A program made the translations under genes and the position numbers. 64,000 nucleotides of DNA, from assembly GCF_004114955.1 (NCBI RefSeq), contig NZ_CP030053.1:1674001-1738000 (forward strand), in the 5' to 3' direction. Source of the stretch: Bradyrhizobium guangzhouense. GTDB taxonomy: Bacteria; Pseudomonadota; Alphaproteobacteria; Rhizobiales; Xanthobacteraceae. This document shows, in pieces, positions 29,531-47,537 of the stretch. Below the pieces are notes generated by a model. It was not told the origin of the DNA, did not search any database, and worked only from the letters and a program-made list of their open reading frames with translations. Position 1 is the first letter of the stretch; each line of letters opens with the position of its first letter.

Positions 29531-32314
<2,784 letters not shown>

Positions 32315-32315
32315 A

Positions 32316-34070
32316 TCAACCTCCGAGATGCCAAACCACCGACCAGGGCGGAAGTCGGTCGCCGGCCGCGCCGCCCCAGATCGGCGTGCCTGCATCGTTG
32401 CTGGAATGCACGATATCCTTGTCCGACAGATTGGCCGTGAGCCGCAGCGTCGTGCCGTCGCCCATGCGCCAATGCGCGGTGAGAAGGCCGTTGTCGTCAG
32501 CCTCGGCATCGCCGAACCGCGCGCCCTTCAGGTGCGGCATGATCTTCTTGCGGCGAACCGCGAGGAGATCGCGCACCAGCGAAAGCCGCGCCTCCTGCTC
32601 GGGCGTGCGGCCGGTCCAGTCCAGCACGGCCGATTGCGGCGTCGCCGGGTCGAGCGGATCGGGCACCTCGTCGCCGTATCTCGCGTAGGCCCAGGCATAT
32701 TCCCGCTTGCGCCCGTTGCGCACGGCATCGGCCAGCCCGCCCTGGAAGTCGCAGAAGAACGGGAAGGGCATCTTCGATCCCCACTCTTCGCCCTGAAACA
32801 GCATCGGCACCATCGGTGCGAGCAGCGTCACCGCGAGCGCGGCCTCGATCTGCCGCGGCGAGGCCAGGCTTTCGAGCCGTTCGCCAAGCGGGCGATTGCC
32901 GATCTGGTCGTGGTTCTGCAGGAAATTGACGAAGGTCGCCGGCGGCAGCTCACGGCTCGGCTCGCCGCGCGGCTTCTTGCCCCAGAATTCCGAGATCTCG
33001 CCCTGGTAGACGAAGCCCGACGCCAGTGATCGCGCGAGGTCCATGCGCGGGGTCTGGTAGTCGGCATAATAGCCGTTGAGCTCCTCGGTCAGCATCACGT
33101 GCCAGACGTGGTGATAATCGTCGTTCCACTGCGCGCGATATTTGCCGTTCGGCGGCTCCTGCGCGGCGTCGAGCAGGCTGGCGCGGTTGTCGCCATTCTC
33201 CAGCACCAGATGAATGTGCCGTCCGGTGGCCTTGGCGAGCTCACCGGTGGCGGCGCTGAGGTCGTGCAGCATCGACTGCTCGCCGGGAATCGCCAGGATG
33301 TGGTTGGCGGCGTCCAACCTCAAGCCATCGAAGCGATAGTCGGTCAGCCAGGACAACGCGTTCTCGACCGCAAAGGCCCGCACTTGCGGCACGCGATAGT
33401 CGATCGCGCTGCCCCAGGGCGTGTGCGCGTCTGTGAAGAAGCCTGGCGCGTAGCGGCCGAGGTAGTTTCCTTCGGGGCCGAAGTGATTGTAGACGACGTC
33501 GAGGAAGACCATCAGCCCGCGCAGATGCGCTTCGTCGATCAACGTCTTCAGCTCTTCCGGACGGCCATAGGCGCTATCGGGCGCATACCACAGCACGCCG
33601 TCATAGCCCCAGCCGCGGAGGCCAGCGAAATCGGCCAGTGGCATGAGCTCGAGCGCGGTGATTCCAGTCGCGACGAGATGATCGAGCTTGTCGGTCATGG
33701 CGCGGTAAGTGCCATCGTGCGTGAAGGTGCCGACATGGGTCTCGATCAACACAGTCTCTTCCCAGGGACGGCCACGCCAATCCTTCGCGCGCCATGCAAA
33801 GGCGTCGTGATCGATCACCTCGCTGGGGCCGAACACATCCTCGGGCTGAAACGCCGAGGCCGGATCCGGCACGTCGATCTCGTCGTCGATCCTGAACTTG
33901 TATCGGCTGCCGCGGGTGAGGCCGGCGATCTCGGCGACATACCAGCCATCCTGCCGGCGCTGCATCGCGTGCCGGGTTTCGAGCAGCAGGTCAACGCGAC
34001 GCGCGCCGGGCGCCCACAGTCGGAACGACACGCCGTCCTTGGTCGGCTTCGCCCCGAAGGATGGCCTCAT
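32316..34070 (-). CDS. treZ: Malto-oligosyltrehalose trehalohydrolase
   Basis: This 584-residue GH13 enzyme releases free trehalose from TreY products. An N-terminal E-set domain (SFRLWAPGARRVDLLL) precedes the catalytic barrel with YDGVLWYAPDSAYGRPEEL, DVVYNHFGPEGNYLG, the nucleophile Asp in GLRLDAANHIL, Glu in LVLENGDNRASL and Asp in FLQNHDQIGNR, then LFQGEEWGS. All three catalytic carboxylates are present. The start overlaps the glgX stop by 4 bp and the stop is 1 bp from treY, so the genes are translationally coupled. Confidence 0.95.
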   Translation of the reverse strand: MRPSFGAKPTKDGVSFRLWAPGARRVDLLLETRHAMQRRQDGWYVAEIAGLTRGSRYKFRIDDEIDVPDPASAFQPEDVFGPSEVIDHDAFAWRAKDWRGRPWEETVLIETHVGTFTHDGTYRAMTDKLDHLVATGITALELMPLADFAGLRGWGYDGVLWYAPDSAYGRPEELKTLIDEAHLRGLMVFLDVVYNHFGPEGNYLGRYAPGFFTDAHTPWGSAIDYRVPQVRAFAVENALSWLTDYRFDGLRLDAANHILAIPGEQSMLHDLSAATGELAKATGRHIHLVLENGDNRASLLDAAQEPPNGKYRAQWNDDYHHVWHVMLTEELNGYYADYQTPRMDLARSLASGFVYQGEISEFWGKKPRGEPSRELPPATFVNFLQNHDQIGNRPLGERLESLASPRQIEAALAVTLLAPMVPMLFQGEEWGSKMPFPFFCDFQGGLADAVRNGRKREYAWAYARYGDEVPDPLDPATPQSAVLDWTGRTPEQEARLSLVRDLLAVRRKKIMPHLKGARFGDAEADDNGLLTAHWRMGDGTTLRLTANLSDKDIVHSSNDAGTPIWGGAAGDRLPPWSVVWHLGG

Positions 34071-36145
34071 AGCGCCCCCGCGAAGGCGAGCACGGAGCGC
34101 GGCGGCGCCTTGCTGTCGCTTCCGGCCAGGAAATCAACGCTGTTCAGTTTGGCATCCGTCGTGTTCAGGATCTGCTGCCAGCTCTTGTATTCGGGCATTT
34201 TGGGCAATTTGAATGCGATCTCTTCGGGGGCGGCGTTCAATACGATAAAGATCGCCGCGCTGCCCGGTTCCATCGGTCCCATCACATAAGAGAGGAACCG
34301 GCCGTCCGGGAATGTCCAGTCGCTCTCCGTCATCTCGTTGCCTTCGGGCGTCAGCCACAGCGCGCCGTAGGAGATGCCGTCCTTGGGGCGGCCGTCGAGC
34401 CAGCGATGGCTGCGCAGCTGCGAGAACTTTTGCCTGATGTCGGCGAGGTCGGCGACGAAATCGACCATGTCGTCGCCGTCCTTGCCGAGATTGTCCCAAG
34501 AGACCCAGCCCACTTCATTGTCCTGGCAATAGGCGTTGTTGTTGCCCGCTTGCGAATTTCCGACCTCGTCGCCGGCGAGGATCAAGGGAATGCCCTGCGC
34601 CAGCATCAGGCAGGCCAGCACGTTCTTGCGAAGCTGGCGGCGGAGAGCGAGGATCTTGGGATCATCGGTCGGGCCCTCGACACCGCAATTGTTGCTGTGG
34701 TTGTCGTTGGAGCCGTCGCGATTGTCCTCGCCATTGGCCTCGTTGTGCTTCTCGTTGTAGCTGAAGAGATCGGCCAGCGTGAAACCGTCGTGCACGGTGA
34801 TGTGGTTGATGCTGGCGCGCGGCCGGCGCCCATCGTGATTGAACAGGTCGGACGACGCCGTCATGCGGCTGGAGATATCGCCGATCAGGCTGCCTTCGCC
34901 GCTCCAATAGCGGCGCATGGCGCTGCGATAGCGGTCGTTCCATTCCGACCATTGCGAAGGGAACGCGCCGACCTGGTAGCCGCCAAGTCCGAGATCCCAG
35001 GGTTCGGCGACCAGCTTGACGGTGGCAAGCACCGGATCCTGCCGGATCGCGGTGAGGAACGAGATGCCGCGATCGAAGCCGTTGGGGCCGCGCGCGAGCG
35101 TCGTGGCGAGGTCGAAGCGGAAGCCGTCGACATGGCAGACCTCGACCCAATAGCGCAGGCTATCCATCACCATCTGCAGCACGCGCGGATGGGTGAGGTT
35201 CACCGAGGAGCCGCAGCCGGTGAAATCGTCGTAATAGCGCGGGTTCTCGCGGTTCAGCCAGTAATAGGAGGCGTTGTCGATGCCGCGATAGCACAGCGTC
35301 GGGCCGAGGTGATTGCCTTCGGCGGTGTGGTTGTAGACGACGTCCAACATCACCTCGATGCCGGCATCGTGCAGGCGCGCCACCGTGGTGCGGAAGGAAT
35401 CCAGCGCATTGTCCTGGGCGTAGCGCTGCTCCGGCGCGAAAAAGGACAGCGTATTGTAGCCCCAATAATTGGCGAGCTTCTTCTCGACCAGCACGCGGTC
35501 GTCGACGAAGCTGTGGATCGGCAGCAGCTCGATCGTGGTGACGCCGAGCTTCTTCAAATGCTCGATCATCGCCGGCGATGACAGCCCACCATAGGTGCCG
35601 CGCAAATTCGGCGGCACGTCGTCGCGCTTCTGGGTCAGGCCCTTGACGTGGGCCTCGTAGATGATGGTGTCTTCCCAGGGGATGTTGGGCCTTATCTCGC
35701 GCCGGCCCCAGTTGAAGGTCTCATCGACCACGACGGCCTTGGGCATGCCGCGCGCATTGTCGCGCCGGTCGAACGACAAATCCTCGCGGGCCGAGCCGGT
35801 GCGATAGGCGAAATGCGCGTCACTCCAGACCAGTCGCCCGGCAAGGCGCTTGGCATAGGGGTCGAGCAACAGCTTGTTGGCGTTGAAGCGATGGCCGTGC
35901 TCGGGCTCGTAGGGGCCATGCACGCGATAGCCGTAGAGCTGGCCCGGCGAGACGTCGTTGAGATAGCCATGCCAGACGTCCTCGGTACGTTCCGGCAGCT
36001 CGATGCGCTCGAGCTCGCGCCGGCCCTGGCTGTCGAACAGGCACAGCTCGATCCTCTCGGCATGGGCCGAGAACAGCGCGAAGTTGGTGCCGCGTCCGTC
36101 CCAGCTTGCACCGAGGCGCGCGGGCGATCCAGCAGTCAGGCGCAT
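34067..36145 (-). CDS. glgX: Glycogen debranching enzyme GlgX
   Basis: This 692-residue GH13 isoamylase-type enzyme hydrolyses alpha-1,6 branches of glycogen to give linear maltodextrins. An N-terminal carbohydrate-binding E-set (GTNFALFSAHAERIELCLFD) is followed by the barrel with VWHGYLNDVSPGQLYGYRVH, DVVYNHTAEGNHLGPTLCYR, Asp in GFRFDLATTLAR, Glu in LVAEPWDLGLGGYQVG and the catalytic VHDGFTL, then ILAGDEVGNSQAGNNNAYCQ. It supplies linear chains to TreY encoded downstream. It is 3 bp after glgB and overlaps treZ, inside the trehalose/glycogen operon. Confidence 0.96.
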   Translation of the reverse strand: MRLTAGSPARLGASWDGRGTNFALFSAHAERIELCLFDSQGRRELERIELPERTEDVWHGYLNDVSPGQLYGYRVHGPYEPEHGHRFNANKLLLDPYAKRLAGRLVWSDAHFAYRTGSAREDLSFDRRDNARGMPKAVVVDETFNWGRREIRPNIPWEDTIIYEAHVKGLTQKRDDVPPNLRGTYGGLSSPAMIEHLKKLGVTTIELLPIHSFVDDRVLVEKKLANYWGYNTLSFFAPEQRYAQDNALDSFRTTVARLHDAGIEVMLDVVYNHTAEGNHLGPTLCYRGIDNASYYWLNRENPRYYDDFTGCGSSVNLTHPRVLQMVMDSLRYWVEVCHVDGFRFDLATTLARGPNGFDRGISFLTAIRQDPVLATVKLVAEPWDLGLGGYQVGAFPSQWSEWNDRYRSAMRRYWSGEGSLIGDISSRMTASSDLFNHDGRRPRASINHITVHDGFTLADLFSYNEKHNEANGEDNRDGSNDNHSNNCGVEGPTDDPKILALRRQLRKNVLACLMLAQGIPLILAGDEVGNSQAGNNNAYCQDNEVGWVSWDNLGKDGDDMVDFVADLADIRQKFSQLRSHRWLDGRPKDGISYGALWLTPEGNEMTESDWTFPDGRFLSYVMGPMEPGSAAIFIVLNAAPEEIAFKLPKMPEYKSWQQILNTTDAKLNSVDFLAGSDSKAPPRSVLAFAGAL

Positions 36146-36148
36146 CGG

Positions 36149-38296
36149 TCAGCTTTCCGGAACGAGGAAGATCGCGGCGAGCGGTGGAACGGTGAGGCAG
36201 AGCTCGGGCGACTTGCCGGCAACGGTTTGCACCTCGCCGATGTTCCCGACATTGGTGCCGCCATAATGGGCGGAGTCGGAATTGAACACCTCTTTCCACT
36301 TGCCTTCGAAGGGCACGGGGACGCGGTAGTTGCGATAGACGTTGGGCGAGAAGTTGATGACCACGAGACATCGTGCGTGCTCGTCAAAGCCCTTGCGCAG
36401 CCAGGCGAACACGTTGCGGTTGGCATCGTCAGTGATCAGCCATTCGAAGCCGGCCTGGTCGCAGTCCATCTGGTGCAGCGCCGGCACCGCGCGATAGAGC
36501 CGGTTGAGGTCGCGGACCAGCGCCTGGACGCCCTGGTGATATCGGTATTCGAGCAGGTGCCAGTCGAGCGACTGGTCGTGATTCCATTCGCGGCTCTGCG
36601 CGATCTCACCGCCCATGAACAGCAGCTTCTTGCCGGGATGGCCGAACATGAAGCTGTAATAGGCGCGCAAGTTCGCAAAGCGCTGCCATTCGTCGCCGGG
36701 CATGCGGCCGAAGATCGAGCGCTTGCCGTGCACGACCTCGTCATGCGACAGCGGCAGGATGAAGTTTTCAGAGAATGCGTAGTGCAGGCCGAACAGGATC
36801 TCGCCGTGGTGATATTTGCGGTGGATCGGATCCTTGCTGATGTAGTTCAGCGTGTCGTGCATCCACCCCATGTTCCACTTGTAGCCGAAGCCGAGCCCGC
36901 CGAATTCGACCGGGCGCGAGACCTGCGGCCACGCGGTGGATTCCTCGGCGGCCGTGGTCGCCTGCGGGAAGCGTGCAAACAGCTCGGTGTTGAAGCGACG
37001 CAGGAAGTTGATCGCCTCGATGTTCTCGCGGCCGCCATACTGGTTCGGAATCCAGGCGCCGGGCGGACGGCTGTAATCGAGATACAGCATGGAGGCGACC
37101 GCATCGACGCGCAGGCCGTCGATGGCGTAGCGCTCCAGCCAGAACAGCGCGTTCGACACCAGGAAGTTCGTCACTTCGGTGCGGCCGTAATTGTAGATCA
37201 GCGTGCCCCAGTCGAGATGACGGCCCTGCAGCGGATTGGCGTGCTCGTACAGCGCCGTGCCGTCGAAGCTGCCGAGCCCGTGCGGATCATCAGGGAAATG
37301 CCCGGGCACCCAGTCGAGCAGCACGCCGATGCCTTCGCGATGGCAGGCATCGATCAGCGCGGCAAAATCCTCAGGCCCGCCGAAACGGCTGGTCGGCGCA
37401 TAGAGGCCGGTCGGCTGGTAGCCCCAGGAGCCGTCGAACGGATGCTCGCTCACGGGCAGGAATTCGAGGTGGGTAAAGCCCATGTCGCGGGCATAGGCCG
37501 GCAGCTGCTCGGCGAGCTCGCGATAGGTCAGCCATTCATTGCCGCTCTTGCGCCGCCACGAGCCGAGATGGACCTCGTAGATCGACATCGGCGCCGACAG
37601 CGCGTTGATGCCGTCGGGCGCCGGCCGCGGCCGCGGCAGATGCGCCTCGTCGAACACGATCGACGCCGTCTTCGGCCGCACCTCGCTGGCAAACGCCATG
37701 GGATCGGATTTCAGCGGCAGCAGATGGCCATGCGGTCCGATGATCTCGAACTTGTAATGATCGCCGGATCTGGCATGCGGAATGAACAATTCCCAATAGC
37801 CGGCGCCGCGAACCCGCATCGGGTGACGCCGCCCATCCCAGAAATTGAAATCGCCGACCACGGAGACGCGCCGCGCGTTCGGCGCGAGCACCACGAAGCC
37901 GATGCCCTCGATGCCCTCCAGCCGCATCGGATGCGCGCCGAGCTTGTCGTAGAGCCGCTGATGCGTGCCTTCGCCGAGCAGATAGAGGTCGAAATCGGTC
38001 AGGATCGGCGGAAAGCGATAGGCGTCCTCGAACTCGACGACGCTGTCGCCGAATTTGGCGCGAAGCTGGTAGTGCTTGGAGCCGTTGGGCAGGGCGCCGA
38101 TGAACAGGCCTGACGCGTGGACGCGGTCGAGCGGCGCGACCTCGCCATGCTCACCGACCGCCTCGACGTTGGAGGCCTCGGGCAGGAAGGCCCGCACCAC
38201 GCTCTTGCCACCCTCGGGATGCATCCCGAGATAGTGGAAGGGGTCGGAGTGGCGGCCCTCGATGATGGCGTAGGCTTCGGCTGGCAGTTTAGGCAT
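36149..38296 (-). CDS. glgB: 1,4-alpha-glucan branching enzyme GlgB
   Basis: This 715-residue GH13 enzyme creates alpha-1,6 branches in glycogen. Two N-terminal E-set domains ([33 protein letters not shown]) precede the barrel with [20 protein letters not shown], the nucleophile in [18 protein letters not shown], Glu in AAEESTAWP and Asp in [12 protein letters not shown]. Length is normal. ATG 38296 overlaps the treS stop by 8 bp (ATGCCTAA); a GTG six codons earlier is possible but less likely. In the GlgE-type pathway GlgB branches the linear chain made by GlgE; in this operon the GlgE homologue is altered (see there). Confidence 0.96.
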
Positions 38297-41200
38297 GGGC
38301 TTCGCTCCCGGCACTGGACAGAATGCGAAGCAGGCCGGTCAGCGGCGCATGGAGCCCCTCGGGCCGGTGGGACAGCTCGTACTCTACCTCGTCGAACGCT
38401 AGATCAAGCAGGAAAAACCTTAACATGCTTTCCGCGCAATGTGCATCTTCCGGCCAGAGCCGCCGGTCGGTCATGGCCTCACGATAGGCGGACAGGAAGG
38501 TCGCGGTGGCGCGCCCGCGCCATTCGCCGAGCGCGGCCGCGAGCCGGCCGTGTTCGTCACTGCCGCCCGACAGCGCTCGGCCTAGCGCGGCGTTAACCGA
38601 AAGATCAATCGAGCGGACCAGGCCCGCAACATCGCGCGCGGCAGGCAGCTTGCGCCGCTTGTCGGCCAGTGTGAGGTGCGGATCGCCGTCGAAATCGATG
38701 ATGAAGATGTCGTCCTTCACGATCAGAGTTTGCCCGAGGCGGAAGTCGCCATGATGACGGATGTTCAACCCGCCAATGTCGGATGGCAAGAGCGCATCGA
38801 TGTGATCCGGCACGGTCGCACGCATCGCGGCCAGCTGGTCGACCAGCGGCTGGTCGCCTTCGCGCAGGCCGTCCCTGATGTCGGCCAGCCGGTCGAAGAC
38901 CCGCTCGGCCCGTCCCTTGAGGTCAGTCGTCCAACGCTTGACGTCCGCCTTGCCGATCGGTTGAGGGGCAAGGTCGGTGGATTTCGCGGCGGCGAGCGCC
39001 ATGTGCAGCTCGGCGAGCCGACGGCCGATCTGCGTCACGAAGTGCAAATAGGGCCCCTGCTCCTGGGTCTCCCGGTGCGTCTCGTCCGGCGGCAGCACGC
39101 GCTGCTCGTCGACATAGCGGTCGAGGTAGCCGGTGGTGACGGCCCAACCGTCACCCTGGTTCTCGACATAGGCATGCAGCACGCCGACCGCGCTGCGGCT
39201 GGCGCCCTCGACCAGCTCGACGCTGCCGAGCAGCGCCGGCGTATTGGGAAAGCGAGCGACCTCGGTGAGATAATTGCCGATTTCGATCTCCGGGTTGGTG
39301 CCGCTTTCGAGCCGGCGATAGATTTTGGCAACATATTGGTTGTCGACCAGCGCCGTGCTGTTCGACTGCTCGACCGCACGAATGCGCGCGGGCTCCTTCA
39401 CGGTGTAATCCGCGAACCGGCTTGTCGGCTTGAACTCGAGCCGCAGATTGTTCTCGTCCACCACGAGGTTCTGCGACAAGCCGCGCAGGAACAGCCCGAT
39501 AAAGATCTGGTCGGTGGCAACGTCGAGCAGCGTGCCTTCGCGTGCGCCCTGGCGCACGGCGGCGAGCGCCCTCGGATTGAAGCGCTCGCGGTCGAAACGA
39601 ACCCATTCGATCTGCATCGGCAGCACATAGCGTGTCGTGACGTCGTCATGCGCCGTCTCGAAAAACGCGATCCACGGCCTGTTGTCGCCGATGTCGCTGA
39701 ACGGCACTGCCGACGTCAGCGCAGCCTCGATGTGCTTGGGATTGTGCTCGGGATACCAGCGCGTCCGCGACAGGAATCCCGGCAGCACGTCGCGTTCGAA
39801 CACGCCGCGCTCGCGGGCGAGCGACACCCAGTTCGAATTGACAGGGACCACCAGCGTCTCGAATTCCGGCACCGCGCGCGGCACCACCGGCTCGGACTTG
39901 TCGCGCTCCTGAAGCTGGAACCAGTAGAAGCCGTAGGGCCCCAGCGTGATCATGTAGGGCAATTCGCCGATCGCTGGAAAACGCGTGCGGCCGAGCATCT
40001 CCTGCGGGATGCGATCCTTCCAGGGCGACAGGTCGAGCTCGGTTGCCTGCGCCGCGCGCGACAGATTGGCGACGCAGAGGATGACTTCGTCGCGATATTG
40101 CCGGACATAGGCGAGCACGGCGCGGTTGGCAGGGCGGATGAAGGTCATGGTGCCGCGGCCGAACGCGAGCGTCGACTTGCGCACCGAGATCAGCCGCTTG
40201 GTGGCATTCAGCAGCGAGGACAGGCTGCGCGACTGCGCCTCCACATTGACGGATTCGTAGCCGTAGACGGGATCCATGATCAGCGGCGCGTAGAGGCGGG
40301 CCGGATCGGCGCGGGAGAAGCCGCCATTGCGGTCCGGGCTCCATTGCATCGGTGTGCGTACGCCGTTGCGGTCGCCGAGATAGATATTGTCGCCCATGCC
40401 GATCTCGTCGCCGTAATAGATGATCGGCGTGCCGGGAAACGACAGCAGCAGCGAGTTCATCAGCTCGATCTTGCGCCGGTCGTTGTCCATCAGCGGCGCG
40501 AGACGCCTGCGGATGCCGACATTGATGCGGGCGCGGGGATCGTTGGCATAGGTGGTCCAGAGATAGTCACGTTCGACGTCGGTGACCATCTCCAGCGTCA
40601 GCTCGTCATGGTTGCGCAGGAACAGCGCCCACTGGCAGCTCGCCGGGATATCGGGCGTCTGGCGCAGGATGTCGGTGATCGGGAAACGGTCTTCCTGCGC
40701 GATCGCCATGTAGATGCGCGGCATCAGCGGGAAGTGGTAGGCCATGTGGCACTCGTCGCCACGGCCGAAATATTCCTGCACGTCTTCAGGCCATTGATTG
40801 GCCTCGGCCAGCAAGAGCTTTCCCTTGGAATAGGCATCGAGTTCCTGGCGCAGGCGCTTGATGATCGCATGCGTCTCCGGGAGGTTCTCGTTCGAAGTGC
40901 CCTCGCGCTCGCAGAGATAGGGAATGGCGTCCAGGCGGAAGCCGTCGACACCGGCGTCCAGCCAGCGCTTCATCACCTGGATGATGGCGCTGACGACGCG
41001 CGGATTGTCGAAATTGAGGTCCGGCTGATGCGAGAAGAAGCGATGCCAGTAGAACGCGCCGGCCTCGGGATCCCAGGTCCAGTTCGACTTCTCGGTGTCG
41101 GTGAAGATGATCCGCGTGCCCTGGTATTTCTGGTCGGTGTCGCTCCAGACATACCAGTCGCGCGCGCTGGAGCCGGCATGGCTGCGGCGCGCACGCTTGA

Positions 41201-41582
41201 ACCAATTGTGCTGGTCGGAGGTGTGGTTGACGACGAGCTCGGTGATGACGCGCAGGCCGCGCTTCTGCGCTTCCTGGATGAAGCGCTTGAAGTCCTTCAT
41301 CGTGCCGAAATCGGGATTGACCGAACCATAATCGGCGATGTCGTAACCGTCGTCGCGGCCGGGCGAGGGGTAGAACGGCAGCAGCCACAGCGCGGTGACG
41401 CCGAGATCCTGCAGATAAGGCAGCTTCTCGGTCAGCCCGGCAAAATCGCCGATACCGTCATTGTTGCTGTCGGCAAAGGCCTTGACGTGGAGCTGGTAGA
41501 TGATCGCGTCCTTGTACCAGAGCTCATCCGCGATCGCGGCAGCCTCGGCCTTCTTGGTGTCGACGGAAGACAGAACATTCAT
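38289..41582 (-). CDS. treS: Trehalose synthase-maltokinase fusion (TreS-Mak)
   Basis: This 1097-residue two-domain protein starts with a GH13 TreS part (about 1-560), which isomerises maltose and trehalose: [20 protein letters not shown], the nucleophile Asp218 in [11 protein letters not shown], Glu in [12 protein letters not shown] and Asp in [11 protein letters not shown]. The C-terminal part (about 590-1097) is a maltokinase-like domain ([43 protein letters not shown]), which makes maltose 1-phosphate from maltose and ATP. Such fusions channel trehalose to maltose 1-phosphate, the substrate of GlgE. It lies 10 bp after the GlgE-like gene and overlaps glgB. ATG 41582 is a clear start. Confidence 0.95.
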
Positions 41583-41592
41583 GGCGTGATCC

Positions 41593-43539
41593 TTACGCCA
41601 GGCAACGGAAGACCAGGGCCGGATCGCGGTCGGGATCGATACGCAATTTGATCCCGCCCCATTCGATGCGGGACTGTTCGCCTGTCACGAGATTTTCGAT
41701 TGTGCTGACGGGGCGGCGCTCGCCGCCGACGTCGATGGTGAGGTCGCCGAGCGGCAACCAGATCTCGCGCACATGGCGCGAGAGGGCGATGGCCGCGACA
41801 ACGATGTTGGCCGGCTCGGTCACCTCCTTGACGAAGGCGATGGTCTCGCCGTCCTCGATGCCGAGGAAGCGCAGATGGATGGTCTGCTGCAGCGCCGGAT
41901 TGTCGTTGCGGATGCGGTTGAGTGCGGTGATGTAAGGCTTGATGTTGCCTGATTTATCCCAGTCGCGCTGGCGGATCTGGTATTTCTCGGACTCCTGATA
42001 TTCCTCACGGCCGGGCACGGCCTCGTGCTCGAGCAGCTCGAAGCCGCTATAGAGACCGTAACTCCCCGACAGCGTTGCCGCCAACGCGACACGCGACTTG
42101 AACATCCAGGCCTCGCCGCTCTGGAGATGATAGGGCAGCAGATCAGGCGTGTTGACGAACAGGTTTGCCCGATAGAAGTCCCGCTCCGGATAGCGCGAGA
42201 GCTCGCCGAGATATTGCTCCAGCTCCCACTTCGCCGTGCGCCAGGGGAAATAGCTGAAGGATTGTGCGAAGCCGAGCTTGGCGAGACCCTTCATCAGCTT
42301 CGGCCGCGCGAAGGTCTTCGAGAACAGGATCACCTCGGGATGTCGCTGCCTGATCTCGTGGATCAGCCATTCCCAGAACGGCAGCGGTGCGGTGTCGTGA
42401 TTGTCGATCGCGAAGATGGTGACGCCATGGTCGATCCAGAACAGCATGGCGTCGCGAAACGCATTCCAAAGCCCGACGCGGTCGACCGAGGCGAAATCGG
42501 GGATGACGATATCAGAATAGGGCCCGTCCGCCGTCCGTACCGACCGGTCGGGACGCCATTTGAACCATTCCGGATGCTGCGTCAGCCAGGGATGATCCGG
42601 CGAGCATTGCACGGCGAAATCGAGCGCGATCTCGAGGCCGTATTCGAGGCAGGTCGCGACCAGCGCGCGAAAATCCTCGATGGTGCCGAGCTCGGGATGC
42701 AGCGCATCGTGCCCGCCCTCGGCCGCGCCGATCGCGTAGGGCGACCCGGGCTCGCCGTCGGTTGCGACAGGCGCATTGTTGCGGCCCTTGCGGCTGGTGC
42801 GACCGATCGGGTGGATCGGCGTGAAGTACAGGACGTCGAAGCCCATCGCGGCGATGTCGGGCACGCGCGCGATGCAGTCGCGGAGCGTGCCGTGCCGGCC
42901 GGCAACCGCGCTCTGGCTGCGTGGCATCATCTGATACCAGGTGCTGAAGCGCGCCCGGTCGCGGTCGATGACAAGCGGGAAGTTCGGCGAGCGGGTGAGG
43001 TCCGGCCGGGCCTGGCTCTCGGCCATGGCCTCGCCGAGGTCAGTTGCGAGCAGCGAGGTGACGTCGCCGTTCTGGAGATAGTCCTCGCATTGCCTGACGA
43101 TCACGGCCGCGGCGTCCTGCCCTGCGCCATGCGCCTTGGTCAAGAGGCCAGCGCCTTCGATCGCATCGAGCGTGACGTCGCCGCCCTTGCGCTGCTTGCG
43201 TTCGACCCCGTGGCGCCAGGTGGCGAATTCGTCGGTCCAGGCTTCGATGGCATAGACGTACTGACCTGCTTCGGTCGGCGTGAACGCGCCGGACCAGCGG
43301 TCATCGCCATGATGGACCATCGGCTCACGCCGCCATTCGCGGTCCTGCTCGCCACGCCAGATCAGCGCGGCGCTGATGGCGGCATCGCCGTCGCGATAAA
43401 TGTCGGCCCACACCTCGACCCGATCGCCCGCGATCCGCTTCACGGCGAAGCGGCCGCCATCGATCAACGGATAGATATCTGCAATGAGGAAAGCGCTGCC
43501 GGCAGCGGCACTCTCGACAGTTTGAATTGTCTTGTTCAC
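41593..43539 (-). CDS. glgE: GlgE-family maltosyltransferase homologue with altered active site
   Basis: A 648-residue protein with GlgE domain order: N-terminal ibeta-sandwich DUF3416 ([20 protein letters not shown]), barrel ([20 protein letters not shown]), and C-terminal parts ([43 protein letters not shown]). Canonical GlgE transfers maltose from maltose 1-phosphate to glucan chains. Here the nucleophile is kept (Asp379 in [10 protein letters not shown], for FRVDNPHTKP), but the acid/base Glu is Lys408 (LFSKTFARP, for LAEAFTRP), and the phosphate-binding region ENPPKKYQDIYP reads [11 protein letters not shown]. Activity is therefore doubtful. The start is uncertain: GTG 43539 is chosen because it lies after the candidate promoter; ATG 43638 would be upstream of its transcription start. 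Confidence 0.75.
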
Positions 43540-43743: not shown

Positions 43744-45705
43744 ATGGATCTTTTAGCTCAAGCCCAGATCAAGGGCGTTCAGTCTGAATTCGTGGATGCC
43801 CTCGGCAAGCTGCGGGTCACCGCGCCGGAGGCGCTGAAATCCATCCTCGATGCCCTGCCTGCGAAGCGGGTTTATCGCTTCGTCAGCGGTCCGGTGGTGG
43901 TACGCGCACTGGGCAATCCGCGCACCGAGCTCGCTTCGGTCGGCACGGCGCCGCTGCAATGGAAAGTCACCAGCAACGGCGATTTGATCGGGCAGGGCGA
44001 GACGCGTGAGCCCGTGATCGCCTGGCCCGCTGGCCTGCCGCTTGGCTATCACCGGCTGACGCTGACCGATGCCGCGGGCGCGACCGAAGAGGTGCCGATG
44101 ATCGTGGCACCCGAGCGCGCCTTCGGCGGTGAGTTTGACCGTGGTTGGCTGCTGGCCGTGCAACTCTACAGCGTCCGCTCGGACCGCAACTGGGGCATCG
44201 GCGATTTCACCGACCTCGCCGGCCTTGTCAGGCTCGCCAAGCAACTCGGCGCTGACGGCGTCGGGCTCAATCCGCTGCATATCCTGTTCGACGATCATCC
44301 GGCCGATTGCAGCCCCTATTCGCCGAACAGCCGGCTGTTTCTCAATCCGCTTTATATCGACGTCGAGGCCATTCCCGAATATTCGGCAGACCTCATTCCG
44401 GACGCCGCCAAGACCGCCGCGCGGCTGCGCCAGGGCGATCGTGTCCCTTATGCCGATATGGCGGCGCTGAAGTGGCTGGGCCTGCGCGCCGCCTTCGACA
44501 GTTTCGTGAAGTCAGCGAGCGGTGTCCGCCGCAACCAGTTCGACGCCTTTCGCGCCGAGCGGGCGCCGCTGTTGTCGCGCTTCGCCTGTTTCGAGGTGCT
44601 GCGCCATCGTTTCAACGTGCCGTGGTGGGAATGGCCGGCGGAATGGCAGCAGCCGGACGATGCCAAATGCGCTGAAATGCGCAACGGACCCGACAAGCAC
44701 AAGGTCGAGTTCGTCGAATTCGTGCAGTGGACGGCGGATAGCCAGTTGCGCGCCGCCAAGGAGCTCTCCGCCGAGCTCGGCATGCGCGTCGGGCTCTATC
44801 TCGACGTCGCCGTCGGCGTGCAGTCCAACGGCTTCGACGCCTGGAACGAGCAGACGTCGATCTCCCGCCACCTTGCGGTCGGTGCGCCGCCTGATGTCCT
44901 CAATACGGTCGGCCAGGATTGGGGACTCGCCGGCTTCAACGCGGGCGGCCTGGAGGCGCAGTCCTTCGTGCCTTTCGCGAACATGCTGGCCGCTTCGATG
45001 CGGCATGCCGGCGCCATCAGGCTGGATCACGTGCTCGGCCTGAAGCGGCTTTACCTGGTGCCGCGCGGCTTCAAGCCCGACAACGGCGCCTATGTGCAGA
45101 TGCCGCTCGAGGCGCTGCTGGCGGCGGTCGTGTGCGAGAGCGTCACCCATAAATGCATCGTGATCGGCGAGGACCTCGGCACCGTGCCCGAAGGCTTCCG
45201 CGAGACCATGCAGGATTTCGGCATCTGGTCCTATCTCGTCATGATGTTCGAGCGCGACGATGCCGGTCATTTCCGCAACGTCGACCACTACCGGCCGAAC
45301 GCGCTGGTGACGCTGAACACCCATGATCTCTGCACCTATGCGGGCTGGCGCTCGTTCAGCGACCTCAGGATGAAGCTGTCGCTCGGGCTCGATCCCGGCG
45401 AGAACGAGCAGGCGCGCTGGGATGCGCTCGGCGCGCTCGATCAGATCCTGCGCCAGAACGGCATCAGCGCCAACGATCTCTACTCGGTGCTCGGCTTCCT
45501 GTCGCGTACGCCGTCGCGGCTGCTCGCCGTTTCGATGGAGGACCTGCTCGGCGTGATCGACCAACCCAACATTCCCGGCACGATCGACGAGCATCCGAAC
45601 TGGCGGCAGCGGCTTCCCGTCGCGCTCGATCAGATCGCCGCCAAGGTCGATCTCGCCGCTTTGAAGGCCGCGACACGGGAACGTTCGCTCATCGGCGGGC
45701 GTTGA
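43744..45705 (+). CDS. malQ: 4-alpha-glucanotransferase (amylomaltase)
   Basis: This 653-residue GH77 enzyme transfers segments between maltodextrins and releases glucose. The family residues are present: VQLYSVRSDRNWGIGDFTDL, Asp nucleophile in GAIRLDHVLGLKRLYLVPRG, acid/base Glu in IGEDLGTVPEGFRE, and Asp in LNTHDLCTYAGW. An N-terminal extension of about 120 residues with a beta-sandwich character is typical for MalQ of this length. It recycles the glucan remnants of the divergent glgE-treY operon. The downstream GH15 gene starts 29 bp later in the same direction. Confidence 0.95.
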   Translation: MDLLAQAQIKGVQSEFVDALGKLRVTAPEALKSILDALPAKRVYRFVSGPVVVRALGNPRTELASVGTAPLQWKVTSNGDLIGQGETREPVIAWPAGLPLGYHRLTLTDAAGATEEVPMIVAPERAFGGEFDRGWLLAVQLYSVRSDRNWGIGDFTDLAGLVRLAKQLGADGVGLNPLHILFDDHPADCSPYSPNSRLFLNPLYIDVEAIPEYSADLIPDAAKTAARLRQGDRVPYADMAALKWLGLRAAFDSFVKSASGVRRNQFDAFRAERAPLLSRFACFEVLRHRFNVPWWEWPAEWQQPDDAKCAEMRNGPDKHKVEFVEFVQWTADSQLRAAKELSAELGMRVGLYLDVAVGVQSNGFDAWNEQTSISRHLAVGAPPDVLNTVGQDWGLAGFNAGGLEAQSFVPFANMLAASMRHAGAIRLDHVLGLKRLYLVPRGFKPDNGAYVQMPLEALLAAVVCESVTHKCIVIGEDLGTVPEGFRETMQDFGIWSYLVMMFERDDAGHFRNVDHYRPNALVTLNTHDLCTYAGWRSFSDLRMKLSLGLDPGENEQARWDALGALDQILRQNGISANDLYSVLGFLSRTPSRLLAVSMEDLLGVIDQPNIPGTIDEHPNWRQRLPVALDQIAAKVDLAALKAATRERSLIGGR

Positions 45706-45734: not shown

Positions 45735-47537
45735 TTGTCTCAGAGGATCGAGGACTATGCGCTGATCGGCGACTGCGAGACCGCGGCGCTGGTCGGGCGC
45801 AACGGCTCGATCGATTGGCTGTGCTGGCCGGCCTTCGATTCCGACGCCTGCTTTGCCGCGATCCTCGGCACGCCCGAGAACGGCCGCTGGCTGATCGCGC
45901 CGAGCGAGGACGTCACAAGCGTCTCGCGCCGCTATCTCGGCGACACCCTGATCCTCGAAACGCGCTTCGAGACCGAGGGCGGCACCGTCGCGCTGGTCGA
46001 CTTCATGCCGCCGCGCGGCAAGGCCTCCGACATCGTGCGGCTGGTGCGCGGCGTCAATGGCACGGTGAAGATGCGGATGGAGCTCATCATTCGCTTCGGC
46101 TTCGGCACCAATATTCCCTGGGTGAGGCGGATCGACCATTCGCTGCTGGCGGTCGCCGGCCAGGACATGACGGTGCTGCGCTCGCCGATCGAGACGCGCG
46201 GCGAGGATCTGACCACGATCGCGGAATTCGAGATCAAGGCAGGCGAGACGGTGCCGTTCGTGCTGACCTACGGTCCCTCGCATCTCGATCCGCCGGAGCG
46301 GATCGACCCCGATGTCGCGCTCCAGGAGACCGAAAAATTCTGGAAGGAGTGGTCAAGCCGTTCGACGCATGATGGCGAGTATCGCGATCTCGTCATGCGC
46401 TCGCTGATCACGCTGAAGGCGCTGACATTCGGCCCGACTGGCGGCATCGTCGCCGCGCCGACCACCTCGCTGCCGGAAAAGCTCGGTGGTAGCAGGAACT
46501 GGGACTACCGCTTCTGCTGGCTCCGCGATGCCACCTTCACGCTGCTGGCGCTGATGAATTCGGGCTACACCGACGAAGCCCTGGCCTGGCACAATTGGCT
46601 GCTGCGTGCTGCCGCCGGCGCGCCCGCCAACATGCAGATCATGTACGGCATCTGGGGCCAGCGGCGGCTCTTGGAATGGGAGGCAAGCTGGCTCGACGGC
46701 TATGAGGGCGCGAAGCCGGTGCGCATCGGCAATGCCGCGCACGCGCAGCTCCAGCTTGACGTCTACGGCGAACTGATCGATGCCTTCCATCAGGCACGCA
46801 TGGCCAAGCTCCAGCTCGACGATGAGGCGACCTGGGCGCTGGAATGCGCGGTGCTGAATCATCTCGCCGAAGTCTGGGATCATCCCGACCACGGCATCTG
46901 GGAGCGGCGCGGCCAGCCGAGGCACTACGTTTTCTCCAAGGTGATGACCTGGGTCGCCTTCGACCGCGCCATCAAGAGCGCGGAGACCTTCGGCTTCAAG
47001 GCGCCGCTGCTGCATTGGCGCGCTTTGCGCGAGGCGATCCATCGCGACGTCTGCAACAGGGGCTTCGACGCTGAAGAGAACGCTTTCGTCGAATCCTACG
47101 GCTCAAAAATGCTCGATGCGAGCGTGCTGCTGCTGCCGGGTGTCGGCTTCCTGCCGGCGCACGATTCGCGCATCCGCGGCACCATCGCAGCCGTCGAGAA
47201 GCGCATGATGCGCGACGGTTTCGTGCTGCGGCACGATCCGCGCGAGGTCTCCGAGGAGACCCAACCGATCGAGGGCGCGTTCCTGGCCTGCACCTTGTGG
47301 CTGGCCGACGCCCACGTGCTGGCCGGCGACCTCGATCGGGCGCAGGCGCTGTTCGATCGCATCGCGGGCCTTGCGAACGATGTCGGACTGCTCGCCGAAG
47401 AATACGATCCCGTCGCACGCCGCCAGGCCGGCAATTTCCCGCAGGCGCTGACGCATATCGCGCTGATCAACACCGCGCATAATCTCTCGGCGGCCAGGCA
47501 CGCCAGCGAGAAGCCGGCGATGCAGCGGTCGAAGTGA
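45735..47537 (+). CDS. Glycoside hydrolase family 15 protein (glucoamylase/trehalase-like)
   Basis: A 600-residue protein with an N-terminal trehalase-like super-sandwich domain (IEDYALIGDCETAALVGRNG, SIDWLCWPAFDSDACFAAI) and an (alpha/alpha)6 barrel. The GH15 signature NWDYRFCWLRDATFTLLAL and the late catalytic region LLAEEYDPVARRQAGNFPQA (with the second Glu) are present. Enzymes of this subfamily hydrolyse glucans or, in some bacteria, trehalose. The substrate is not certain here; the trehalose/maltodextrin neighbourhood fits both. The start appears to be a TTG at 45735 (SQRIEDYALIG fits the family N-terminus), with only a weak ribosome-binding site, so it may rely on read-through from malQ. 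Confidence 0.88.
   Translation: MSQRIEDYALIGDCETAALVGRNGSIDWLCWPAFDSDACFAAILGTPENGRWLIAPSEDVTSVSRRYLGDTLILETRFETEGGTVALVDFMPPRGKASDIVRLVRGVNGTVKMRMELIIRFGFGTNIPWVRRIDHSLLAVAGQDMTVLRSPIETRGEDLTTIAEFEIKAGETVPFVLTYGPSHLDPPERIDPDVALQETEKFWKEWSSRSTHDGEYRDLVMRSLITLKALTFGPTGGIVAAPTTSLPEKLGGSRNWDYRFCWLRDATFTLLALMNSGYTDEALAWHNWLLRAAAGAPANMQIMYGIWGQRRLLEWEASWLDGYEGAKPVRIGNAAHAQLQLDVYGELIDAFHQARMAKLQLDDEATWALECAVLNHLAEVWDHPDHGIWERRGQPRHYVFSKVMTWVAFDRAIKSAETFGFKAPLLHWRALREAIHRDVCNRGFDAEENAFVESYGSKMLDASVLLLPGVGFLPAHDSRIRGTIAAVEKRMMRDGFVLRHDPREVSEETQPIEGAFLACTLWLADAHVLAGDLDRAQALFDRIAGLANDVGLLAEEYDPVARRQAGNFPQALTHIALINTAHNLSAARHASEKPAMQRSK

Follow-up and report, generated by a model that had tools for sequence, protein, structure and literature searches.

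What is a GlgE protein kept for once it has lost the glutamate that serves as acid/base in its active site? As an enzyme, GlgE has been studied and serves as a target for tuberculosis drugs, and its loss can be toxic to organisms that make maltose 1-phosphate. The question is raised by a glgE homologue of Bradyrhizobium guangzhouense in a stretch of DNA of 64,000 nucleotides, which is called the window here. The gene (41593..43539, minus strand) has a GTG start, encodes 648 amino acids and matches PF11896 with 175.7 bits; its product, a predicted pseudoenzyme, is of a type that we call class A. An earlier note on this DNA had offered three readings: an enzyme with a new specificity, a regulatory pseudoenzyme of glycogen synthesis, or a gene in decay.

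Active site and fold of the window protein

Comparison with characterised GlgE bore out the proposed homology over the whole length. The window protein aligns with S. coelicolor GlgE1 at 472 bits over residues 17-644, that is from end to end, and contains the GlgE N/S domain. A confident AlphaFold model, the deeper one that replaced a first model with a pLDDT of 66.4, has the GlgE fold and is closer to GlgE structures than to other GH13 proteins among the matches listed.

The roles of individual GlgE residues are taken from two structural papers (PMC4526890, PMC5076824). Asp394 is the nucleophile and Glu423 the acid/base; Arg392, Gln324 and Asp480 are located at subsite -1, where Arg392 touches O2 of the sugar; Asn395, Lys355, Asn352 and Tyr357 contact the phosphate. 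The -2 subsite is formed by Lys264, Asn268, Ser279, Ala282, Asp359, Lys534 and Tyr535, Ser279 itself being engineered (V279S) in that structure, and the acceptor is contacted by His397 (+1), Trp448 (+3) and Arg449 (+4).

In the window protein, the nucleophile is present as Asp379, and both Glu423 and Arg392 are absent, their positions being occupied by Lys408 (codon AAG, 42316..42318, minus strand) and Ala377. The distance between nucleophile and acid/base position is 29 residues, as the earlier note had counted. The altered FRVDNPHTKP block that it had reported was found as [10 protein letters not shown] (42385..42414, minus strand); this block contains the nucleophile position and differs from the canonical one by Arg392 to Ala377, Pro396 to His381, His397 to Asp382 and Lys399 to Ala384. 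The altered phosphate block was also confirmed. This lid or former phosphate loop, [14 protein letters not shown] (42493..42534, minus strand), is three residues shorter, with Asn352 changed to Gly, Lys355 deleted, and Tyr357 and Asp359 kept. Tyr341 and Asn380 alone are left of the four phosphate ligands. The losses in catalytic, phosphate and +1 positions comprise Glu423, Arg392, Lys355, Asn352 and His397. Retained are Asp394, Asn395, Tyr357, Gln324, Asp480, the complete -2 maltose subsite (K251, N255, S266, A269, D343, K519 and Y520) and the glucan acceptor contacts Trp448 and Arg449. Lys519-Tyr520, the equivalents of Lys534/Tyr535 (PMC4526890), are encoded at 41980..41985, and Trp433-Arg434, those of Trp448/Arg449 (PMC5076824), at 42238..42243, all on the minus strand.

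The earlier note had proposed a search for a second, canonical glgE. None was found in the genome, where the sole other match was a weak GH13 hit of 20.9 bits and the window copy is the only GlgE found.

Distribution and conservation of class A

At a threshold of E <= 1e-20, 77 of 98 Bradyrhizobium genomes gave a GlgE match, each in single copy; the G077 and G082 matches are each split in two. Class A occurs in 51 genomes, canonical GlgE (class B) in 14 and a third type (class C) in nine; one further copy looks degenerate and two are canonical and off-locus. Of the 51, seven were placed in class A by 84-85% identity to the query rather than by reading the active site directly, the class A sequences that were read being at least 75% and all others at most 72% identical to it. 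In 21 of the 98 genomes there was no GlgE match, and 15 of these 21 also lacked a GlgC match. Canonical GlgE with some 60% identity to the query is encoded in L136 and L137 (G052, G054) and in L184 and L185. The L136 and L137 genes occupy another locus, where the neighbour is a distant TreS-like gene (39% identity) and the usual operon is absent.

The three classes share a syntenic locus, gh15-malQ / glgE-treS-mak-glgB-glgX-treZ-treY, with some genes missing from some stretches and the class A gene order based on 11 loci. In the window, glgB (branching enzyme, 36149..38314), glgX (debranching enzyme, 34067..36145), treZ (32316..34070) and treY (29531..32509) are located on the minus strand. 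On the plus strand, malQ (43744..45705) is divergent from glgE and is followed downstream by a GH15 trehalase-like gene (45735..47537).

The unusual residues are a fixed property of the class. Among 96 distinct class A proteins, the acid/base position is Lys in all 96, in agreement with the Lys408 pointed out by the earlier note, and Asp382 and His381 are likewise found in 96 of 96, Ala377 in 95 and the nucleophile Asp in 94. The retained contacts are conserved to a similar degree: K264, A282, D359, K534, Y535, Y357, N395, D480 and W448 in all 96 proteins, Q324 in 95, R449 and S279 in 91 each and N268 in 87. A larger set of 217 class A rows shows the nucleophile Asp in 213; the other four have lost it (Ala twice, Val and Gly once each). 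These four represent three or four separate lineages, and all of them keep Lys, His and Asp382. Across 123 class A loci, some of which are the same genome twice, the Lys408 codon is AAG in 116 and AAA in seven, and there is synonymous turnover with no amino-acid change at Lys, His or Asp382. All these loci have full-length frames of 646-654 residues, a length filter having dropped one split copy, L135. Of 186 sites that are invariant in classes B and C and common to S. coelicolor, 144 are kept in class A. The alignments with characterised GlgE and with Bradyrhizobium homologues, which had been suggested along with the three readings, thus upheld the altered residues. Misalignment or sequencing error as their cause is ruled out by the structure model and the 96 distinct relatives.

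In L135 (G077, class A), the glgE match is split in two and includes one TGA, and treS is found as two overlapping fragments; either real breakage or an assembly error in a single genome may be the cause.

Among the loci read in family, order and phylum surveys, no class A protein was found outside Bradyrhizobium. The family and order surveys, with 89 loci read, yielded four class A (all Bradyrhizobium) and 85 canonical proteins (two of them Bradyrhizobium). In the phylum survey, 50 loci read from 62 matching genomes comprised seven class A (all Bradyrhizobium, the window's own included) and 43 canonical proteins. These counts cover part of the genomes with a match, and some loci repeat the same genome. 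Among plasmid records, 184 had a relative, all less than 60% identical.

Origin and selection

In a tree with 23 class A rows, from which the active-site columns had been removed, class A is one clade (SH-aLRT 100) whose sister is the canonical GlgE L111 from a groundwater MAG. Class C is a separate clade (SH-aLRT 100), and the degenerate L138 stands beside it on a long branch. Since classes A and C are separate clades, the active site has been altered at least twice within Bradyrhizobium. A single stem branch explains the class A residues. Recent transfer is ruled out by synteny and tree.

Class C GlgE differs from canonical GlgE in the phosphate loop, where KKY is replaced by QRW or QHW, and has intact catalytic residues in the nine genomes. 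These are L126-L134 (G042, G076, G044, G004, G068, G003, G010, G049 and G069), all nine with Asn352 changed to His, Lys355 to Gln and Tyr357 to Trp, and with Asp394, Glu423, Arg392, His397 and the -2 site intact. Their maltokinase has DFD for DFE, as in class A, and Gly for the next Glu of DFEGEP. Class C GlgE may be an active transferase that uses a donor other than maltose 1-phosphate and arose independently of class A.

L138 (G082) provides a comparison of what decay looks like. Its GlgE carries Trp448 to Ser, Arg449 to Cys, Lys355 to Glu, Tyr357 to Cys and His397 to Gln, its maltokinase motifs are altered (HGDFHLGE, no IDF), and the genome carries GlgC.

Class A glgE is under purifying selection. 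Pairwise NG86 estimates of omega, which are crude and derive from non-independent pairs, were 0.154 for glgE in class A genomes, 0.138 for gh15, 0.132 for treS, 0.114 for malQ, 0.076 for glgX and 0.073 for glgB, so that glgE has the highest value of the six locus genes and lies at the upper end of its neighbours' range. The corresponding glgE values are 0.122 in class B and 0.155 in class C. Within class A glgE, constraint is tighter on the catalytic halves (0.110 and 0.131) than on the N/S domain (0.209) and the C domain (0.198). Constraint on the second catalytic half has eased, not vanished, as its omega is 0.131 in class A versus 0.077 in class B.

The maltokinase next to glgE

A TreS-maltokinase in the same operon had been expected to provide the GlgE substrate. 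The partner is indeed adjacent: a treS-mak fusion of 1097 amino acids (38289..41582, minus strand) begins with an ATG 10 bases past the glgE stop. That it makes the substrate is probably wrong, as three maltose contacts are lost in 84 of 84 distinct class A maltokinases. M. tuberculosis Mak is described to contact its sugar through Trp222, Asp322, His324, Glu430, Tyr433 and Trp441, with Tyr370 and Arg438 for the second glucose (PMC6520443). In the Mak domain of the window (38292..39872, minus strand), Arg948 (38739..38741) takes the place of the catalytic-loop His that binds the sugar (His324), Leu994 (38601..38603) replaces Tyr370, which contacts the second glucose of maltose, and Gly1076 (38355..38357) replaces Trp441 of the sugar site, all on the minus strand and, like all Mak contacts here, mapped by eye from alignments. 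The His324 position is Arg in 84 of 84 class A proteins and His in every class B (15) and class C (9) protein. At the Tyr370 position, the 84 class A proteins have Leu (69), Val (10), Ala (3), Gly (1) or Ile (1), and at the Trp441 position Gly (82) or Ala (2); Tyr and Trp are found there in all 15 class B and all nine class C proteins, in which these three Mak positions and the four named next are intact throughout. The other contacts in class A are Asp322 and Arg438 in 84 each, Tyr433 in 80 and, for Glu430, Glu in 65 and Asp in 19.

The catalytic Asp of the HGD motif and the Mg-binding Asp are present in all 84 class A Mak domains, the latter motif reading DFD, not DFE. All three classes have intact TreS catalytic motifs. 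In class A, the Mak C-lobe has an omega of 0.273 and is the least constrained part measured; TreS has 0.050. From these sequence features, class A maltokinase activity is likely lost. With the maltose site gone, maltose 1-phosphate is probably no longer a product of the operon. A donor that is probably unmade would also explain how the class A clade escapes the toxicity reported on GlgE loss in M. tuberculosis (PMC4526890).

A genome-wide search found no other Mak in the B. guangzhouense genome. Outside the window, a second TreS-like gene (G000:C1:7115793-7119240, L262-L264) scores 583.9 bits, below the family cut-off, and faces another GH13 gene; the same search placed no maltokinase there.

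The motif GGAAC-N15-19-CGTT, which we take to be an EcfG-like promoter, is absent from the malQ-glgE gap. It has six matches in the window (29608-58166), compared with a shuffle mean of 1.96 and at least six matches in 4 of 100 shuffles. In B. diazoefficiens, the general stress regulator is reported to control treS (blr6767), and a mutant in this gene contains more trehalose and less maltose according to an earlier paper cited there (PMC8092242). Production of free maltose by TreS would lead one to expect this phenotype. Class A includes one protein under the name B. diazoefficiens (P0086), and the copy of the strain studied may be of this class.

Probable takeover by GlgC-GlgA

glgC and glgA are adjacent in the B. 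guangzhouense genome. GlgC was matched in every one of the 51 class A genomes (counting G055, where the match consists solely of two fragments that fall below the cut-off), in all nine class C genomes and in the one degenerate case. Of the remaining genomes, two of the 14 in class B, one of the two off-locus and six of the 21 GlgE-less ones had a match. GlgA matches in 97 of 98 Bradyrhizobium genomes, nearly all class B included, and does not separate the classes. The 5.8-Mb genome of L111, the canonical sister of class A, gave no GlgC match, an absence that is soft because the genome is a MAG. In a phylogeny-aware test, the GlgC association comes down to two independent pairs and is not significant (sign test, p 0.5). 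Glycogen in class A genomes is likely made by GlgC-GlgA, and the GlgC pattern fits a hand-over to that route, resting on two independent events.

Outside Bradyrhizobium, 19 genomes of the family have both a GlgE match and GlgC, and the GlgE read in 16 of the 19 is canonical throughout. GlgC as a sufficient sole cause is unsupported, as canonical GlgE coexists with it in these relatives.

Function of class A GlgE

We consider it reasonably probable that class A GlgE is a pseudoenzyme which has been kept as a non-catalytic maltose- or maltodextrin-binding protein after glycogen synthesis moved to GlgC-GlgA. Of the three readings in the earlier note, the pseudoenzyme is the best supported, given a catalytic loss that is fixed in the lineage and purifying selection on the gene. 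Judged by its residues, class A has very likely lost maltosyltransferase activity. The conversion would have taken place on one Bradyrhizobium stem branch, on which the acid/base Glu became Lys, the -1 Arg became Ala, the +1 His became Asp and two of four phosphate ligands were lost. The fused maltokinase would have lost its maltose site on the same stem, the maltose 1-phosphate route being dropped as a unit with TreS intact, and GlgC-GlgA would have taken over glycogen synthesis.

Class A GlgE would then have been retained for sugar binding, in line with the persistence of the -2 subsite, Gln324, Asn395, Asp480 and Trp448/Arg449. An E423A variant of GlgE was reported with malto-octaose bound across subsites -2 to +6 (PMC5076824). 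As class A keeps the -2 subsite and Trp448/Arg449, we infer that it may hold maltose or glucan ends without transfer; by analogy with the variant, ligand binding is plausible. Free maltose from TreS is a plausible ligand, as the treS mutant data suggest. The most likely role would be that of a scaffold or sensor for TreS, GlgB, GlgX, TreZ, TreY and MalQ, and any role toward these operon partners is speculative. We speculate that the bound state might tether the operon enzymes to glycogen or that maltose might be sensed.

Several observations speak against this reading. The nucleophile Asp in 213 of 217 rows is more than a role without chemistry needs, although it is perhaps structural. Phosphate is a good leaving group, and a weak turnover of maltose 1-phosphate independent of the acid/base is conceivable. 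The loss of the +1 contact His397 may weaken glucan binding, class A glgE is the least constrained of the six locus genes and looser than class B in its second catalytic half, and the link to GlgC consists of two independent events, with canonical GlgE and GlgC side by side in the 16 family genomes read.

Among the alternatives, a new GH13 chemistry survives best and is nevertheless unlikely. Here Asp379 would still be the nucleophile, His381, Asp382 and Lys408 would form a new acid/base set, and another maltosyl donor would be used. The fixation of these three residues in 96 of 96 proteins and of Asp379 in 94 argues for it, as do the retention of the -2 and most -1 residues and the strong purifying selection. 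However, the replacement of Asp379 in 4 of 217 rows in which Lys, His and Asp382 stay weakens any new specificity, and Arg392 with its contact to O2 of the -1 sugar is gone. Moreover, we know of no GH13 enzyme with Lys as acid/base. The more specific proposal that Lys408-His381-Asp382 replaces the Glu acid/base on a phosphate-free maltosyl donor, which would arise because TreS now yields free maltose, is more doubtful still.

We regard it as improbable, too, that class A GlgE is a purely structural subunit, inert and without a ligand, that serves only the folding, stability or localisation of TreS-Mak or GlgB. The preserved gene order of the locus and the 10-base spacing to treS in the window are consistent with such a role, and pathway complexes are known, as mycobacterial TreS and Mak form one (PMC4306142). 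Against it, the catalytic (beta/alpha)8 halves are under tighter constraint than the N/S and C domains, and the sugar contacts persist.

Gene decay after GlgC-GlgA had made GlgE redundant could draw on the co-occurrence of GlgC, the degenerating L138 in the genus and the fragmented glgE and treS of L135, but it is largely contradicted by an omega of about 0.15 (0.11-0.21 by domain), full-length frames of 646-654 residues and changes that are fixed, not scattered, in 96 distinct proteins, so that it was rejected as highly improbable. Equally remote is a maltose 1-phosphate maltosyltransferase still working at a reduced rate: the nucleophile and the -2 subsite are kept and phosphate needs little acid help, yet mutation of Glu423 is reported to abolish activity (PMC5076824, citing earlier work), Arg392, Asn352 and Lys355 are lost as well, and the kinase that should make the donor has no maltose site.

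Relation to known systems and implications

Class A GlgE resembles the GlgE of EC 2.4.99.16 (GH13_3; S. coelicolor GlgE1, M. tuberculosis GlgE) in full-length homology, N/S domain, fold, nucleophile position, -2 subsite, Trp448/Arg449 and gene order with treS-mak and glgB, and differs from it by Glu to Lys, Arg392 to Ala, His397 to Asp, the deletion of Lys355 and Asn352 to Gly. With the E423A variant of S. coelicolor GlgE1, it shares the removal of the acid/base Glu; the malto-octaose binding across -2 to +6 is that of the laboratory variant (PMC5076824). In contrast to the latter, class A is natural and carries the further fixed changes R392A, P396H and H397D and a shorter lid. The class A Mak domain recalls the actinobacterial glucosamine kinase, a Mak paralogue that also has DFD for DFE and a replaced Tyr370 and is reported not to phosphorylate maltose (PMC6520443). 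However, that kinase keeps the sugar-binding His and Trp and has its own GlcN signature, whereas the class A Mak has Arg and Gly (or Ala) at these positions. P. aeruginosa PAO1 likewise has a treS/pep2 fusion clustered with glgE and glgB, plus a GlgA route (PMC8084333). In that bacterium both GlgE and Pep2 are active, and maltose 1-phosphate rises almost eight-fold when glgE is deleted (PMC8084333). Pseudoenzymes are a known kind of protein; searches of the open-licence PMC literature found no paper that describes GlgE as one.

In class A, GlgE and probably its kinase have been disarmed together and in place, and both proteins have been kept, a natural experiment in dismantling a pathway with a toxic intermediate. 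The selected changes may reveal parts of GlgE that do more than catalysis. Class A proteins are named 'alpha-1,4-glucan:maltose-1-phosphate maltosyltransferase' or 'starch synthase (maltosyl-transferring)' in public sources, and many such 'maltosyltransferase' and 'starch synthase' genes of Bradyrhizobium are probably misnamed. Thus, models that include a GlgE route to glycogen in these bacteria are likely wrong. In much of Bradyrhizobium, a genus of soil and root nodules, what databases list as an enzyme is most likely a non-catalytic sugar-binding protein.
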